Source: a virus
Length of the DNA: 26,765 bases
Direction: 5' to 3' (one strand)
Virus record (IMG/VR): IMGVR_UViG_3300002242_000927
Coordinates: 1 to 26,765 of that record
Part shown: piece by piece, positions 22,141-26,765 of the stretch
How the letters are laid out: the number at the start of each line of letters is the position of its first letter
Position numbering within the stretch: position 1 is the stretch's first letter
The notes under the pieces: model-generated
Seen by the model: the letters and a program-made list of their open reading frames with translations, nothing else
Database searches by the model: none
What the model was told of the DNA's origin: nothing
Program-made: the position numbers and the translations under genes

Positions 22141-22387
22141 AATCAATGGATACATCATGCTTGCCTTCTTCGTAAAGAGAACAGTGTTTTGAAAAAACAT
22201 CAAGGCATGCTTCTTGAGAATTTAGTCGTCCACGCTTTTTACAAAACTGTACTTTGTCGGGGAGTGATGTGCCATAAGATACATCACGCAGCCAATAAAC
22301 TTTGCCGTCATCGTTTATTTGCTTTTTGCAAAAAATAAACGCTGTTTCAAAGTCTAAAAACTTGCAAGCAGTGAATTTCTTTTCCAT
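22133..22387 (-). CDS. Small Cys-rich hypothetical protein (84 aa)
   Basis: The start overlaps the stop of the repeat gene before it (TAATG). The product has five Cys (8, 20, 49, 61, 69) and the motif QFCKKRGRLNSQEACLDVFSKHC, which looks like a small metal- or disulfide-stabilised domain. A YWLRDVSYG segment is in the middle. No family is recognised. Coupling suggests co-expression with the repeat proteins upstream. Confidence 0.55.
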   Translation of the reverse strand: MEKKFTACKFLDFETAFIFCKKQINDDGKVYWLRDVSYGTSLPDKVQFCKKRGRLNSQEACLDVFSKHCSLYEEGKHDVSIDYE

Positions 22388-22917
22388 TACATTTCTTCAA
22401 GAGTAGAGGATTGGTGCTCCTGCTTTGAGTAGGGCTCTTGATCGGGGCAATACTGATTCCATTCACGCATTTCCTGAGCTGTTGGGTTTTTGGATTGATG
22501 CTCTATTTTGGTATAGCAGGTTTGATCGGGGCAAGAAACATTCCATCTGCGAATTTCTGAAGCTATGGGGTTAGTGGATTTGTGTTCCTCTTTGGTGTAG
22601 GGAGTTTCGTCTGGACAGTCAACATTCCACCAACGAATTTCCAAAGATGCGGGGTTAGTGGATTTGTGTTCCTGTTTGGTGTAGGGGGTTTGGTCGAGAT
22701 AACCAAGGTTCCAAAGACGCATTTCCCAGGTTGTGGGGTTAGCGGATTGGTGTTCCTGTTTGGTGTAGGGGGTTTGAGCTGGGCAATCAATATTCCATTC
22801 ACGTATTTCTTGAGCTGTTGGGTTAGTGGATTTATGCTCATCTTTGGTGTAGTGGGTTTTGTCTGAGTATCGCTGATTCCATTGACGCATTTCATCGGGC
22901 GTGTGTGTGGTTTTCAT
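22387..22917 (-). CDS. WN-repeat protein A: six 28-residue repeats (176 aa)
   Basis: Almost the whole protein is six tandem units of 28 residues (the first is 27 and reads MKTTHTPDEMRQWN...). Consensus halves are NPTA-x-E-[MI]-R-x-WN, then (D/x)CPDQTPYTKQEHQS[AT]. Units begin at residues 32, 60, 88, 116 and 144; the tail is TLEEM. Conserved positions are P2, E6, R8, W10, N11, P15, Y20, T21, K22, E24, H25 and S27; the Cys at 14 is missing in two units. The pattern suggests two short helices per unit joined by a Cys-Pro turn. No signal peptide or membrane segment. Start is within the stop of repeat protein B (ATGA) with GAGGAAG as ribosome site. I do not recognise the family. Confidence 0.75.
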   Translation of the reverse strand: MKTTHTPDEMRQWNQRYSDKTHYTKDEHKSTNPTAQEIREWNIDCPAQTPYTKQEHQSANPTTWEMRLWNLGYLDQTPYTKQEHKSTNPASLEIRWWNVDCPDETPYTKEEHKSTNPIASEIRRWNVSCPDQTCYTKIEHQSKNPTAQEMREWNQYCPDQEPYSKQEHQSSTLEEM

Positions 22918-23273
22918 AATTCTTCCTCGGTATATGGGGTTTGGTTGGGACAGTCATTATTCCACAAAACCATTTCAGAAGTTATTGGATTAGCGGACTG
23001 GTGTTGGTGTTTGGTATAGGGAGTTTGACCGGGACAATCAGTATTCCACCAACGCATTTCCAAAGCTGTCGGGTTTTTGGATTGGTGTTCCTGTTTGGTG
23101 TAGAGGGTGTAGAGGGTGGAGAGGGTTTGCCTGCACCAATAAAAATTCCATTGACGCATTTCCGGAGCTGTGGGGTTAGCGGATTGGTGTTTTGTCTTGG
23201 TGAAGGAAGTCTCATCTGGAAAATGTTTAGTCAATTCAAGCATTTCCTGAGCTGTGGGGTTGGAAATTTTCAT
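22914..23273 (-). CDS. WN-repeat protein B: four 28-residue repeats (119 aa)
   Basis: The start is the ATG at 23273, chosen over a longer frame because a strong GAGGAGAG Shine-Dalgarno precedes it; the product begins MKISNPTAQEM. Four units follow. Unit 1 is degenerate (LTKHFPDETSFTKTKHQSA). Unit 2 carries a six-residue insertion from a 9-base microduplication (TLSTLYTLYTKQEHQS). Unit 3 is near consensus and unit 4 ends early with YTEEEL. The last three codons supply the ribosome site of protein A, so the two are coupled. Unit divergence fits an older array beside a more uniform one. Confidence 0.7.
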   Translation of the reverse strand: MKISNPTAQEMLELTKHFPDETSFTKTKHQSANPTAPEMRQWNFYWCRQTLSTLYTLYTKQEHQSKNPTALEMRWWNTDCPGQTPYTKHQHQSANPITSEMVLWNNDCPNQTPYTEEEL

Positions 23274-23295
23274 AAGCTCTCCTCGATGTAGGGTG

Positions 23296-23403
23296 ATTAG
23301 TGTAATGATGATCCTGTTTGGTACGGTAGGTCTGATTCCCTGTTGATGCTGATATTGGTATAGGGAGTTTGATTGGAACAGTCCTGATTCCACCAACTCA
23401 CTT
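23296..23403 (-). pseudogene. Relic of a WN-repeat unit
   Basis: Directly after the stop of the 145-residue gene, in the same frame, the codons read KVSWWNQDCSNQTPYTNIS before drifting off to a stop. The core WWN-x-DC-x-NQTPYT is the repeat consensus. The first part of the unit is replaced by the end of the 145-residue gene. A GTG could start it but has no ribosome site, so I treat it as a decayed outer unit of the array. Confidence 0.6.
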
Positions 23404-23404
23404 T

Positions 23405-23842
23405 CTAAAAATCAGACAGGTTTATGCCTGAAAAAAGCATGCTGCCTGGACGAATGTGGCCATGCAAATCAATTTGATGGTTTTCTACCCATTCTTTTAC
23501 ACAACGTCTTACCAAAACGTCGTCTTCGTAAGCGTCCATGCTTACAACAGAAGTGTGGAGGTATTCATACCCTTCTGTTGCGAATGCGTGGTGATAGTCA
23601 GCACCACGCTTTAATGATGTTTTCAGCGTAACTTCTACGCTAAAAAAGTCTAAATCCTTTTTCCAGAAAAACCTACCTGGTTGTAGATAATTTGGTCTGA
23701 AGCCCAACTTGTCTCTAAGTTCTCTTGAGTCCGCAGTCCCTTCTGGGACTACCACTACTTTTCGTCCCACGAATCCCTTCATTGCAGCTTCAGAGTTTTG
23801 CTCTGAAGCTGCAACTAAAAATAATTTTTTTGAAGTTATCAT
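23405..23842 (-). CDS. Hypothetical protein (145 aa)
   Basis: This protein has an alternating beta-like start (KKLFLVAASEQ), a motif EAAMKGFVGRKVVVVPEGTADSRELRDKLGFRP (19-51), then PGRFFWKKD, a VEVTLKT strand and GYEYLHTSVV. It might bind nucleotide or a partner; no catalytic motif is clear. The ATG lies one base after the stop of the previous gene, so it is coupled. An alternative start is Met21, just after a perfect 14-bp inverted repeat. No family recognised. Confidence 0.55.
   Translation of the reverse strand: MITSKKLFLVAASEQNSEAAMKGFVGRKVVVVPEGTADSRELRDKLGFRPNYLQPGRFFWKKDLDFFSVEVTLKTSLKRGADYHHAFATEGYEYLHTSVVSMDAYEDDVLVRRCVKEWVENHQIDLHGHIRPGSMLFSGINLSDF
23782..23814. repeat. Perfect 14-bp inverted repeat, 5-base loop
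   Basis: Arms TTGCAGCTTCAGAG (23782-23795) and CTCTGAAGCTGCAA (23801-23814) flank the loop TTTTG. It lies within codons 10-20 of the 145-residue gene on the - strand. On the + strand it is followed by an A/T-rich run with seven T's about 11 bases on, so it could act as an attenuator or weak terminator for convergent transcription. Confidence 0.7.
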
Positions 23843-24512: not shown

Positions 24513-25307
24513 TTAATTATCCTCCTGAAGCTTTGGAACAAATCCCAACGCATCAACTAATTTCTCGACTTCTTCCTTAGCGTAGTAATAAATCTCTTCA
24601 TAAGGCAACTTGCGCTTTATTCCGTCTTGTAACGCTAGTTTTAATTTTTTTAATACTTTGGCATTTGTTTCATTGGTAAAGTCTTTTATACACACATCAT
24701 CTCTTGACATCATATTTAGCTCTCCAATTAAAGAATCAAGCGTGTCAAATATTTGAGCTTTAGTTATATAATTCCTAAAAATATCGGTTACATCAACAGG
24801 CGAAAGATCAAACCATTCACCAGATATATGTTTATCTGCATAGTCTTCGTGTAATTCTTTTTCTATTTCTTTTCCACCTCGTATTGTCACACAAACCTCT
24901 ATGAAGTTTTTATTACCTACTTGAATAGCTTGCAATCTACTCCTAATATTAGACGTACAACCTATTTTGTAACCACCTCCATTTGATACCATAATATATG
25001 TGGTATCGGGCTCTATGCTAGGTGTAAATTCTGGTTCGTATCCTTCTCCATCACCAAACCCCTTAAATAAATAAATGGTTTCCAGCATCGTTACGACTCT
25101 AGGACTTAGCAGGAATTGGTCATACTCCTGCCCCATTCTTGTTTTGAAAATTGATGGTATTATTTCATCTGTTATACCATGAGTGGACAGCCTTCTTATT
25201 GTCTTAAGTAGTGTCCTATGCGGGACATCTAACATTTTAGAAACCAACACCGATGTGGTTAAAATATCTTTTCTTATCACATGTACTATGTCATTATTCA
25301 TTAGCAT
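24513..25307 (-). CDS. GIY-YIG (T5orf172/MUG113-type) protein with N-terminal Rha-like HTH region (264 aa)
   Basis: Residues 16-95 (ILTTSVLVSKMLDVPHRTLLKTIRRL ... YDQFLLSPRVVTMLETIYLFKGFG) look like the N-terminal recognition region of Rha-type phage regulators. Residues 103-170 are a GIY-YIG-superfamily domain of the T5orf172/MUG113 kind: TYIMVSNGGGYKIGCTSN, IRSRLQAIQ, then EIEKELHEDYADKHISGEWF. Y104 and Y113 (YKIG) are the two core tyrosines, R122/R124 and E151 the likely catalytic Arg and metal-binding Glu. The C-terminus is helical. Such shuffled proteins occur in phages and large DNA viruses as regulators or nucleases. Start at MLMNND or the second ATG is uncertain; neither has a strong ribosome site. 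Confidence 0.7.
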   Translation of the reverse strand: MLMNNDIVHVIRKDILTTSVLVSKMLDVPHRTLLKTIRRLSTHGITDEIIPSIFKTRMGQEYDQFLLSPRVVTMLETIYLFKGFGDGEGYEPEFTPSIEPDTTYIMVSNGGGYKIGCTSNIRSRLQAIQVGNKNFIEVCVTIRGGKEIEKELHEDYADKHISGEWFDLSPVDVTDIFRNYITKAQIFDTLDSLIGELNMMSRDDVCIKDFTNETNAKVLKKLKLALQDGIKRKLPYEEIYYYAKEEVEKLVDALGFVPKLQEDN

Positions 25308-25381
25308 TATCCGTTATTTAAAAATACTATATTAACAAACTTACGCAACTATGACATAACAAATTATTTAAGTGTACAAGT

Positions 25382-25438
25382 CGCTTAATTTTTATATTCA
25401 ATATTCCAAAAGCTCTTTGCTGATAACTTCGCTTTTGC
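25382..25438 (-). pseudogene. Rha 3'-end relic / direct repeat copy 1
   Basis: The stretch 25308-25482 between the GIY-YIG and KilA-N genes has no gene. It holds a broken copy of the Rha gene end, reading SKSEVISKELLEY and stop on the - strand. It matches 26306-26358 (GESEVISKDLAIE and stop) with one mismatch in the first 22 bases, a short gap, then a nearly identical 23. The rest is AT-rich with no convincing promoter for the GIY-YIG gene, although TTGCGT and TATTTT 16 bases apart lie near its start. Confidence 0.65.
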
Positions 25439-25482
25439 TGCTTTTTTTAGTTATGAGTTAATTTATGGCCTTATATACTTTA

Positions 25483-26070
25483 TTAGTGCTGCAATAGCGC
25501 TAACCGTACAGCCTCTTCATTATTATTCATAGCGTTAGCGAGCAAGGAAATGTCATTGTGAATTTGATCTCGTTTCTTTAATTGCTCCTCGCTAGAAGTT
25601 TGCCAGTCACTAACCCCGCATTTTTCTTTTATCTGTTTTGCGACAACCGAAACAAATTTGTAAAATTCTTTTTTGTTGCCATGATGTGCATAAAGGCTAC
25701 CACACATTTTCTTGTACGAATTTCCGCTAGCGTTTCTATTTGCAAGCAACTGGTCATACATCCACTTGTATGCTTCAATCTTTAACTTTGGGCTTATTGC
25801 AAGAGCAAGATCGATAAAAAGGAATGGATGAACCCATGTTTTTTTATCTCTTGAAATAGCGTTCCCATATTCCTCTTTCAACTCTGCTATAAACTCAACT
25901 GTAGATTTTGATTTCAACCACATTGAAAGATTGAAAAGGGGCATATCTTGTCCAATTCTCCATTTATTACCAGCTTTTACTAGATCCGTCGCAGAAAAAA
26001 ACTCAGATTTGCTTTTTTGTTTGATCTCCACCCCAAACAATTCTCGTTTCATAATGACTTCTGTTTTCAT
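25483..26070 (-). CDS. KilA-N domain protein (195 aa)
   Basis: Residues 9-110 are a KilA-N domain: RELFGVEIKQKSKSEFFSATDLVKAGNKWR, FNLSMWLKSKSTVEFIAELKEEYG, then TWVHPFLFIDLALAISPKLKIEAYKWMYDQLL. KilA-N is a DNA-binding fold found in phage and large-virus regulators. Here the C-terminal part (115-195) is helical with no recognised second domain. GGAG lies 9 bases before the ATG. Upstream is a near-consensus promoter inside a large palindromic operator (26103-26154), so the gene is strongly but tightly controlled, quite possibly by its own product. It lies between direct repeats made of the Rha gene end. Confidence 0.75.
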   Translation of the reverse strand: MKTEVIMKRELFGVEIKQKSKSEFFSATDLVKAGNKWRIGQDMPLFNLSMWLKSKSTVEFIAELKEEYGNAISRDKKTWVHPFLFIDLALAISPKLKIEAYKWMYDQLLANRNASGNSYKKMCGSLYAHHGNKKEFYKFVSVVAKQIKEKCGVSDWQTSSEEQLKKRDQIHNDISLLANAMNNNEEAVRLALLQH

Positions 26071-26102
26071 TTATATTGACTCCGATTCCAGTTAACTAAA
26101 GA

Positions 26103-26154
26103 TTTAGTACAATATTATTACATCAGTTTTCTGATGTCAAGTTTTTGTACTAAA
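26103..26154. promoter_or_regulatory. Nested palindromic operator (52 bp) over the KilA-N promoter
   Basis: Outer arms TTTAGTACAA (26103-26112) and TTGTACTAAA (26145-26154) and inner arms ACATCAG (26120-26126) and CTGATGT (26131-26137) are both perfect. They share one centre (TTTT, 26127-26130) with exactly 7 bases between outer and inner arm on each side. Both -35 and -10 boxes lie within it. It should bind a dimer or tetramer contacting four half-sites. Confidence 0.85.
26112..26140 (-). promoter_or_regulatory. Strong sigma70-type promoter for KilA-N gene
   Basis: On the - strand, TTGACA (26140-26135) is separated by exactly 17 bases from TAATAT (26117-26112). Transcription should begin about 7 bases later, leaving a leader of some 35 bases before the KilA-N ATG at 26070. 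The host's sigma70 would read it before phage proteins exist, as expected for an early gene. Confidence 0.8.
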
Positions 26155-26170
26155 AAATTATGTTAATTTC

Positions 26171-26190
26171 ACCGCCCTGACGTGGGCGGT
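26171..26190. repeat. Short GC-rich hairpin upstream of KilA-N operator
   Basis: Arms ACCGCCC (26171-26177) and GGGCGGT (26184-26190) flank the loop TGACGT. It lies between the Rha/X relics and the KilA-N promoter, so it may terminate transcription coming from the right. On the - strand no U-run follows directly, but TAATTTTTT comes about 15 bases later. Confidence 0.55.
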
Positions 26191-26215
26191 ATTTCTCGTA
26201 TCCATAATCTTCAGT

Positions 26216-26274
26216 TTTATTTTAGATATTCAAGCAAAGCTCTTTGCGTTTTACACTTAGCATCAAGCGCCTTT
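26216..26274 (+). repeat. 59-bp exact direct repeat, copy 1
   Basis: It is identical to 26707-26765 over all 59 bases visible; the second copy is cut by the window edge, so the true repeat may be longer. On the - strand both copies encode the end of the same gene: KALDAKCKTQRALLEYLK and stop. Confidence 0.9.
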
Positions 26275-26321
26275 TTAACCGCGAGATCAATTGTATTCTT
26301 CGCCCCGCTTAATTTTTCTAT
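26217..26321 (-). pseudogene. 3'-end fragment of gene X, copy 1
   Basis: After a TGA the frame reads IEKLSGAKNTIDLAVKKALD and continues to the RALLEYLK ending, without any ATG, GTG or TTG start. The last 18 codons match the gene entering from the right edge at 26708. It is a duplicated 3' end left beside the Rha relic. Confidence 0.6.
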
Positions 26322-26358
26322 TCAATAGCCAGGTCTTTGCTGATAACTTCGCTTTCGC
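26306..26358 (+). repeat. Rha 3'-end direct repeat, copy 2
   Basis: This is the partner of 25382-25438. It is the genuine 3' end of the Rha relic (SEVISKDLAIE). The KilA-N gene with its operator lies between the two copies. Confidence 0.7.
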
Positions 26359-26686
26359 CGTGTAGCTCTGCGAATAGTTCTACTTTTGTTGCCTGTTTTC
26401 TAACAATCTTTCCAGCTTCGCGAGTAATTCTATATTTAGGTTGTTTCTTGTATCGTTGGAATGCTTCAAGTTCAATCCTGAATTTTTTAAATTGTTGAAT
26501 GATTTTTTTCTTAAATTGTACAACTGTTTTATTATTCCTTAATAGTGTCCCTAAAAACATAAATTGATCCTCATCTAACATATATTCATTAGCAGCGCGC
26601 CCACCAGTAGACTTTAACTTTCGCGTCTTTAAAACGCTAAAGTCAGCAAAATAAGATTTGTATTTTTCTAAATTATATCTTATTGA
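26318..26686 (-). pseudogene. N-terminally truncated Rha-type regulatory gene
   Basis: The frame is open from 26686 to the TAG at 26318. It reads LEKYKSYFADFSVLKTRKLK, STGGRAANEYMLDEDQFMFL and GTLLRNNKTVVQFKKKIIQQ, then a basic helical part. Only a late ATG at 26581 exists (87 residues). The 'GR-x-x-x-EY-x-LDE-x-Q ... LLRN-x-x-x-VV-x-FK' run is typical of Rha-like phage regulators, and the homologous part starts well before that ATG. So the N-terminal HTH half has been lost. Whether the 87-residue C-terminal part is expressed is unclear; no ribosome site is visible. The related GIY-YIG gene at 24513 may carry the missing kind of N-terminus. Confidence 0.65.
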
Positions 26687-26706
26687 CTAATAAACCTAAT
26701 AAAGAC

Positions 26707-26765
26707 TTTATTTTAGATATTCAAGCAAAGCTCTTTGCGTTTTACACTTAGCATCAAGCGCCTTT
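26707..26765 (+). repeat. 59-bp exact direct repeat, copy 2 (at window edge)
   Basis: Partner of 26216-26274, offset by 491 bases. The Rha relic lies between the two copies. Confidence 0.9.
26708..26765 (-). CDS. Gene X, 3' end (partial, continues past the right edge)
   Basis: An open - strand frame enters from the right and encodes 18 residues, KALDAKCKTQRALLEYLK, then TAA. The same ending is repeated at 26217. It is probably the intact gene whose 3' end was duplicated when the Rha-type gene arrived. No function can be read from so short an end. Confidence 0.4.
   Translation of the reverse strand, partial: KALDAKCKTQRALLEYLK

Follow-up and report, generated by a model that had tools for sequence, protein, structure and literature searches.

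Which protein reads the double palindrome that encloses the promoter of a viral KilA-N gene? The question is raised by IMG/VR record IMGVR_UViG_3300002242_000927, a viral sequence of 26,765 bp that was analyzed over its whole length (hereafter the window) and in which two palindromes at positions 26103-26154 share one centre upstream of a KilA-N gene. The KilA-N domain, which binds DNA and is widespread among DNA viruses, probably gave rise to the fungal cell-cycle regulator SBF. Full-text literature searches retrieved no paper on a KilA-N operator and none joining KilA-N, operator and palindrome. Judging from sequence comparisons, the KilA-N gene probably regulates itself with this element as operator, the sequence of which co-diverged with the protein. 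More tentatively, autoregulation by way of a nested operator with two shells may extend to a whole subfamily of phage KilA-N proteins, each phage having its own letters but the common geometry and promoter register; such private operators would provide a first rule of DNA recognition for KilA-N proteins of prokaryotes.

The double palindrome and the KilA-N promoter

Direct reading and a repeat search resolved the 52-base element as TTTAGTACAA-TATTATT-ACATCAG-TTTT-CTGATGT-CAAGTTT-TTGTACTAAA, i.e., outer arms of 10 bp and inner arms of 7 bp, separated on both sides by a 7-base gap, around a 4-base centre. The parts of the element, the promoter and the gene are as follows.

26103..26112: left outer arm (TTTAGTACAA), perfect complement of 26145-26154
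26112..26117, minus strand: -10 box TAATAT, last base in common with the outer arm
26120..26126: left inner arm (ACATCAG), perfect complement of 26131-26137
26131..26137: right inner arm (CTGATGT), overlapping the -35 box
26135..26140, minus strand: -35 box TTGACA, 17-nt spacer, 10/12 consensus together with the -10 box
26145..26154: right outer arm (TTGTACTAAA), complement of the left outer arm
25483..26070, minus strand: KilA-N domain protein of 195 aa, MKTEVIMKR subfamily (Pfam PF04383, AlphaFold model), proposed autoregulator

Both palindromes are perfect and centred between 26128 and 26129. The original prediction of two concentric palindromes with equal 7-base spacers and an embedded TTGACA-17-TAATAT promoter was thereby confirmed, as was its count of 34 arm bases paired without a mismatch (17/17 pairs). 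Added together, the two longest concentric arms reached at least 17 in 1 of 300 Markov sequences of the window's length and of the composition of its AT-rich end, and the runner-up place in the real window scored 11 against 17 at the element. Around the element centre 19 of 26 possible pairs form; the mean over the window is 6.6 (sd 2.3). No second copy of TTTAGTACAA at 0 mismatches and no further ACATCAG-N4-CTGATGT with fewer than 3 mismatches were found in the window, and 25300-26765 had no Rfam match.

The half-site centres are 11 bp apart in the inner dyad and 42 bp apart in the outer one, corresponding to one and four helical turns, so that each half-site pair would lie on one face of the DNA. 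On one side, inner and outer half-site centres are 15.5 bp apart by arithmetic (about one and a half turns), which would place the two shells on opposite faces. TTGACA-17-TAATAT scored highest by consensus among the promoter-like sites of the region, and the element sits 33 bp upstream of the KilA-N open reading frame (ORF), which starts at 26070 on the minus strand and is preceded by a GGAG-like ribosome site 9 nt before its ATG. The dyad overlaps the promoter of the proposed regulator's own gene, as an autoregulatory operator would.

Geometry and promoter register in the KilA-N subfamily

The window protein matched Pfam PF04383 over residues 15-105 with 38 bits (cut-off 23.8). It belongs to a subfamily with an almost invariant start (MKTEV.MKR), members of which occur in viral contigs, metagenome-assembled genomes of several phyla and named Vibrio phages; its closest relative (L016) is 62% identical. 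Its AlphaFold model (pLDDT 87.5) comprises a KilA-N domain and a helical C-terminal part, and residues 2-107 of the model matched the domains of Mbp1, PCG2, Bqt4 and Swi6 with Z scores of 4.6-5.9 (Mbp1 5.9), i.e., the KilA-N/APSES fold. A search of PDB sequences returned nothing significant. In the subfamily alignments, residues 1-9 (MKTEVIMKR) are near-invariant, ahead of the completion of the predicted first strand, and the rest is about 57% identical. Some members in phage records (e.g., OZ195694, our L026) are labelled "amidase", apparently because PHROG 6095 bears that name; the window protein matches this PHROG as well. No evidence of an amidase was seen.

The original prediction had proposed a search for the exact half-sites across the window and upstream of KilA-N genes, and named loss of the symmetric arms in homologues as refuting. 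The exact letters recurred neither elsewhere in the window nor upstream of any KilA-N relative found; the nested geometry recurred in the subfamily, so that the loss holds for the letters and not for the architecture. This was established by fixing the window geometry (pairs at radius 2-8 and 16-25, even centre) and seeking it upstream of other members. A second nested double dyad of the same geometry and different letters, TTTTCTTGAAAAGCATTGACACTATTA|TAAAAGTGTTTTATTATTTCAAGAGAA, was found at L056, with TCTTGAAA/TTTCAAGA outside and ACACT-N8-AGTGT inside. As in the window, its outer arm begins at radius 16 and its inner dyad lies between the -35 and -10 boxes. Each of the two elements occurs once in its own contig (the window and the 38.7-kb L056 contig), and both contigs are fragments. 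Four further members (L033, L034, L059, and L066) also reached p<0.05 in the fixed-geometry test, and related dyads, some individually non-significant, were seen by eye or in dyad scans at L016, L023, L037, L044, L052, L111, L181, and L183. Strong dyads were present in all of the window's own clade (the window, L016 and L051), and dyad-bearing members were scattered over the protein tree. Among 15 members fetched later the same tendency was observed (mean p 0.31 vs 0.61 in controls), with none at 0.05 singly.

The architecture was specific to the subfamily. When the 100 bp upstream of each gene were scanned with the fixed geometry, 57 members (window left out) differed from 145 control regions (p=1e-6). 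The same scan did not separate 34 distant KilA-N genes from controls (p=0.44), and the subfamily differed from these distant genes (p=0.0016).

Next to geometry, the position on the promoter was analyzed in 31 sigma70-like promoters of the subfamily, again without the window; the centre was placed 12.0 nt from the start of the -35 box. Pairing at this fixed centre was 0.448 in the inner zone, 0.457 in the outer zone and 0.304 in the gap zone. Among offsets 6-16, inner and outer pairing both peaked at 12.0, and the inner value was equalled only at 17.5, over the -10 box. Significance was obtained by a half-swap permutation, in which right halves are exchanged between sequences, so that column composition is kept and within-sequence symmetry alone is removed. 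The inner (p=0.009) and outer (p=0.0016) zones were significant and the gap was not (p=0.80); inner and outer together gave 259 pairs against 221.4+-9.8 (p=0.00015), with a worst case of p=0.001 on leaving one promoter out. As a control, 80 promoters of other genes from the fetched loci gave p=0.066, and their excess per promoter was roughly one quarter as large. These register tests were built on the window geometry and are in that respect independent of the sequences tested, some of which had been inspected before the test was chosen. They replaced an earlier spacer-dyad test of loosely called promoters against 15 controls, which was non-significant (p=0.14).

A similar result was obtained for promoters of Bacteroidota type (TAnnTTTG). 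With the centre placed at the distance seen in the window, 11 nt ahead of the -7/-10 box, the 12 promoters of this type outside the first set gave p=0.006 for inner plus outer zones and p=0.002 for all 26 positions, and the inner plus outer excess was non-significant at offsets 1-2 nt away. For all 18 such promoters, some of which were also in the first set, the values were p=0.064 and p=0.011, respectively. Bacteroidota-type promoters (e.g., L035, L057, and L190) also had a second symmetry centre, located 9 nt past the beginning of the TAnnTTTG (-7) box (z 4.8; all-position p=0.001 in the 12-sequence set), which may mark another operator close to where transcription starts.

Searches for exact letters outside these sets yielded candidates that were rejected. 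The exact outer arms occurred at 5 places among all viral contigs, none in a seen KilA-N context and one being an assembly-like giant palindrome, and the exact inner dyad with TTGACA occurred at 3 places, about as expected by chance. The pattern TTGACAYY-N8-RRTGTNATAATAT matched 41 stretches, only 3 of which precede KilA-N genes; as those 3 had suggested the pattern, it was dropped as circular.

Several observations weigh against an autoregulatory operator. The window's half-site letters are absent upstream of every KilA-N relative found, the nearest of which is only 62% identical, and the exact half-sites are common to no relative. A clear dyad is missing in many members, including Vibrio phages L025, L026, and L165, and the dyad of L016 has its centre at another position with respect to the promoter. 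Per promoter, the excess is moderate (about 1.2 paired cells) in small samples of promoters that were called by consensus and not mapped, and the slight, non-significant excess of the control promoters sets a limit on the register result. Finally, the best full-length structural match of the window protein, DdrC of Deinococcus radiodurans (Z ~10, 10% identity), has an rmsd of 6.7-7.9, which speaks at best for a common arrangement.

Candidate regulators at the locus

The reading of the element as an operator around the KilA-N promoter has good support. For KilA-N itself as the regulator, which the original prediction had considered, the support is indirect: geometry and register recur across the subfamily and are absent from distant KilA-N genes and other promoters, and no other gene is common to the loci. 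No gene next to KilA-N recurred in more than 4 of the 46 loci; the one larger cluster was made up of antisense shadows of the KilA-N gene. A regulator that binds at its own gene and evolves together with its binding site would also be expected to leave such a trace, in which the layout is conserved and the letters change.

We infer that a KilA-N dimer or dimer of dimers would contact the inner 18-bp dyad in the -35/-10 spacer and also the outer arms flanking the promoter, covering the -35 box, the -10 box and the start region and thereby repressing its own transcription. The occupied site should repress because transcription starting about 7 nt past the -10 box would begin inside the outer arm. 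That each side has two different half-sites suggests two DNA contacts per subunit or two dimers; the cooperative tetramer suggested originally is possible, and a dimer with two contacts per subunit fits equally. In related phages, arm sequences and protein would have diverged together, with geometry and promoter register unchanged.

The surroundings of the element bear on the alternatives. The plus strand of the window carries podovirus-like structural genes, and a minus-strand block at the right end contains the C-terminal fragment of a Rha gene, KilA-N, a GIY-YIG/T5orf172 protein and small genes. Two further features flank the element and its gene.

26171..26190: terminator-like hairpin ACCGCCC..GGGCGGT directly upstream of the operator, from the repeat search, with a putative function
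24513..25307, minus strand: GIY-YIG/T5orf172 (MUG113) protein, next gene downstream of KilA-N

The hairpin lies between the KilA-N promoter and the Rha fragment and probably insulates the promoter from upstream transcription, as far as its sequence tells. The GIY-YIG/T5orf172 gene is likely in the same transcription unit as KilA-N. No relatives of the window's T5orf172 gene or of a structural gene were found in viral contigs. An imperfect direct repeat of about 55 bp (25382-25438 and 26306-26358), consisting of the 3'-terminal part of a Rha-like gene (..SEVISKDL/EL..) with the bases that follow, brackets the KilA-N gene and operator, as if they had arrived as one cassette. The record is probably a fragment; an exact 59-bp direct repeat (26216-26274 and 26707-26765) has its second copy at the extreme contig end, so that the assembly probably broke there. 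At 22404-23408, about 10 degenerate 84-bp tandem units encode a 28-residue repeat, NPTxxEMRxWNxxCPDQTPYTKQEHQSx (minus-strand ORFs 22387-22917 and 22914-23396).

Among the alternatives, the one that survives best, although unlikely, is that another phage regulator (CI/Cro-like, or Rha, encoded beyond the contig end) represses the KilA-N transcription unit through this operator. The record ends 611 bp upstream of the element and a repressor gene may be missing, the Rha fragment lies upstream, and KilA-N heads early or replication operons, the usual repressor targets, in several relatives. However, the same geometry and register in unrelated phages with different neighbours would need one protein family, and no other common gene was seen. 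Main repressors usually have several operator copies, whereas one was found in each of the two contigs checked. The Rha-type regulator named in the original prediction fared poorly: no intact Rha gene lies beside the element, the sole nearby Rha-like ORF (26318-26581) matching the C-terminal end of the Rha domain alone (profile positions 58-89 of 91; 26 bits, below the Pfam cut-off of 29.9), and Rha was not seen as a recurrent neighbour among the 46 loci.

It is less probable still that the element is a cognate KilA-N site with a purpose other than promoter control, for example self-immunity, as with the aba element of BstA, or replication or compaction. In favour, the gene adjoins replication genes in several relatives. 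Against this, aba is 63 bp long, carries direct repeats at its ends and overlaps the start codon, and here the dyad lies 33 bp upstream, in register with the -35 and -10 boxes. Transcription control is favoured because the element is locked to the promoter. Chance or the general palindromicity of AT-rich promoters is very improbable: AT-rich DNA pairs readily and control promoters had some excess, but the subfamily excess exceeds shuffles, half-swaps, controls and distant KilA-N genes and is confined to the arm zones. Phage early promoters can use host regulators, but a host transcription factor is just as hard to credit, since the architecture is found on promoters of different types and in differing letters, which no single host factor would explain.

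Comparison with known systems

An autoregulatory KilA-N operator would resemble the operators of lambda CI/Cro and P22 C2/Cro, in which dyads lie over the -35 and -10 boxes of the regulator's own promoter. Those operators comprise several copies of one half-site type read by a lambda-type helix-turn-helix protein, whereas here two different half-site sequences share one centre, the reader would be KilA-N, and the element apparently occurs once per genome, with no second copy in the 26.8-kb window or the L056 contig (both fragments). DdrC (7udi, 7qvb, and 8u0g), solved as a dimer, likewise combines an N-terminal DNA-binding domain with a helical C-terminal domain, and on the predicted model it may be related to the phage KilA-N proteins. 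However, DdrC is a DNA-damage response protein and no known transcription regulator, and the likeness may be one of arrangement only. The APSES/SBF domain of fungi (Mbp1 and Swi4) has a homologous KilA-N fold, but belongs to eukaryotic regulators with other sites, and beyond the fungal family little is known of KilA-N recognition sequences (eLife 2016, PMC4862756).

By analogy, the nearest counterpart would be BstA of prophage BTP1 with its cognate aba DNA. BstA has a KilA-N-like N-terminal domain, and beside its gene lies a short cognate DNA element that is not the same in all variants; aba measures 63 bp, has terminal direct repeats, overlaps the start codon and has a known role in self-immunity (PMC8585504). 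Both systems thus join a KilA-N-type domain to cognate DNA beside its own gene, in pairs that differ between phages. They differ in that the window element is a nested inverted repeat locked to a promoter and does not reach the ATG, and in the length of the protein (195 aa vs 307 aa in BstA of BTP1). A PADLOC scan of 50 members returned a weak PDC-S22 match and no BstA match, the presence of a BstA model in that release being unchecked. A conserved geometry with letters particular to each phage would supply many candidate protein-DNA pairs and make KilA-N specificity accessible to simple swap experiments, and the operator geometry would help to frame the question of why BstA pairs with its cognate aba DNA.
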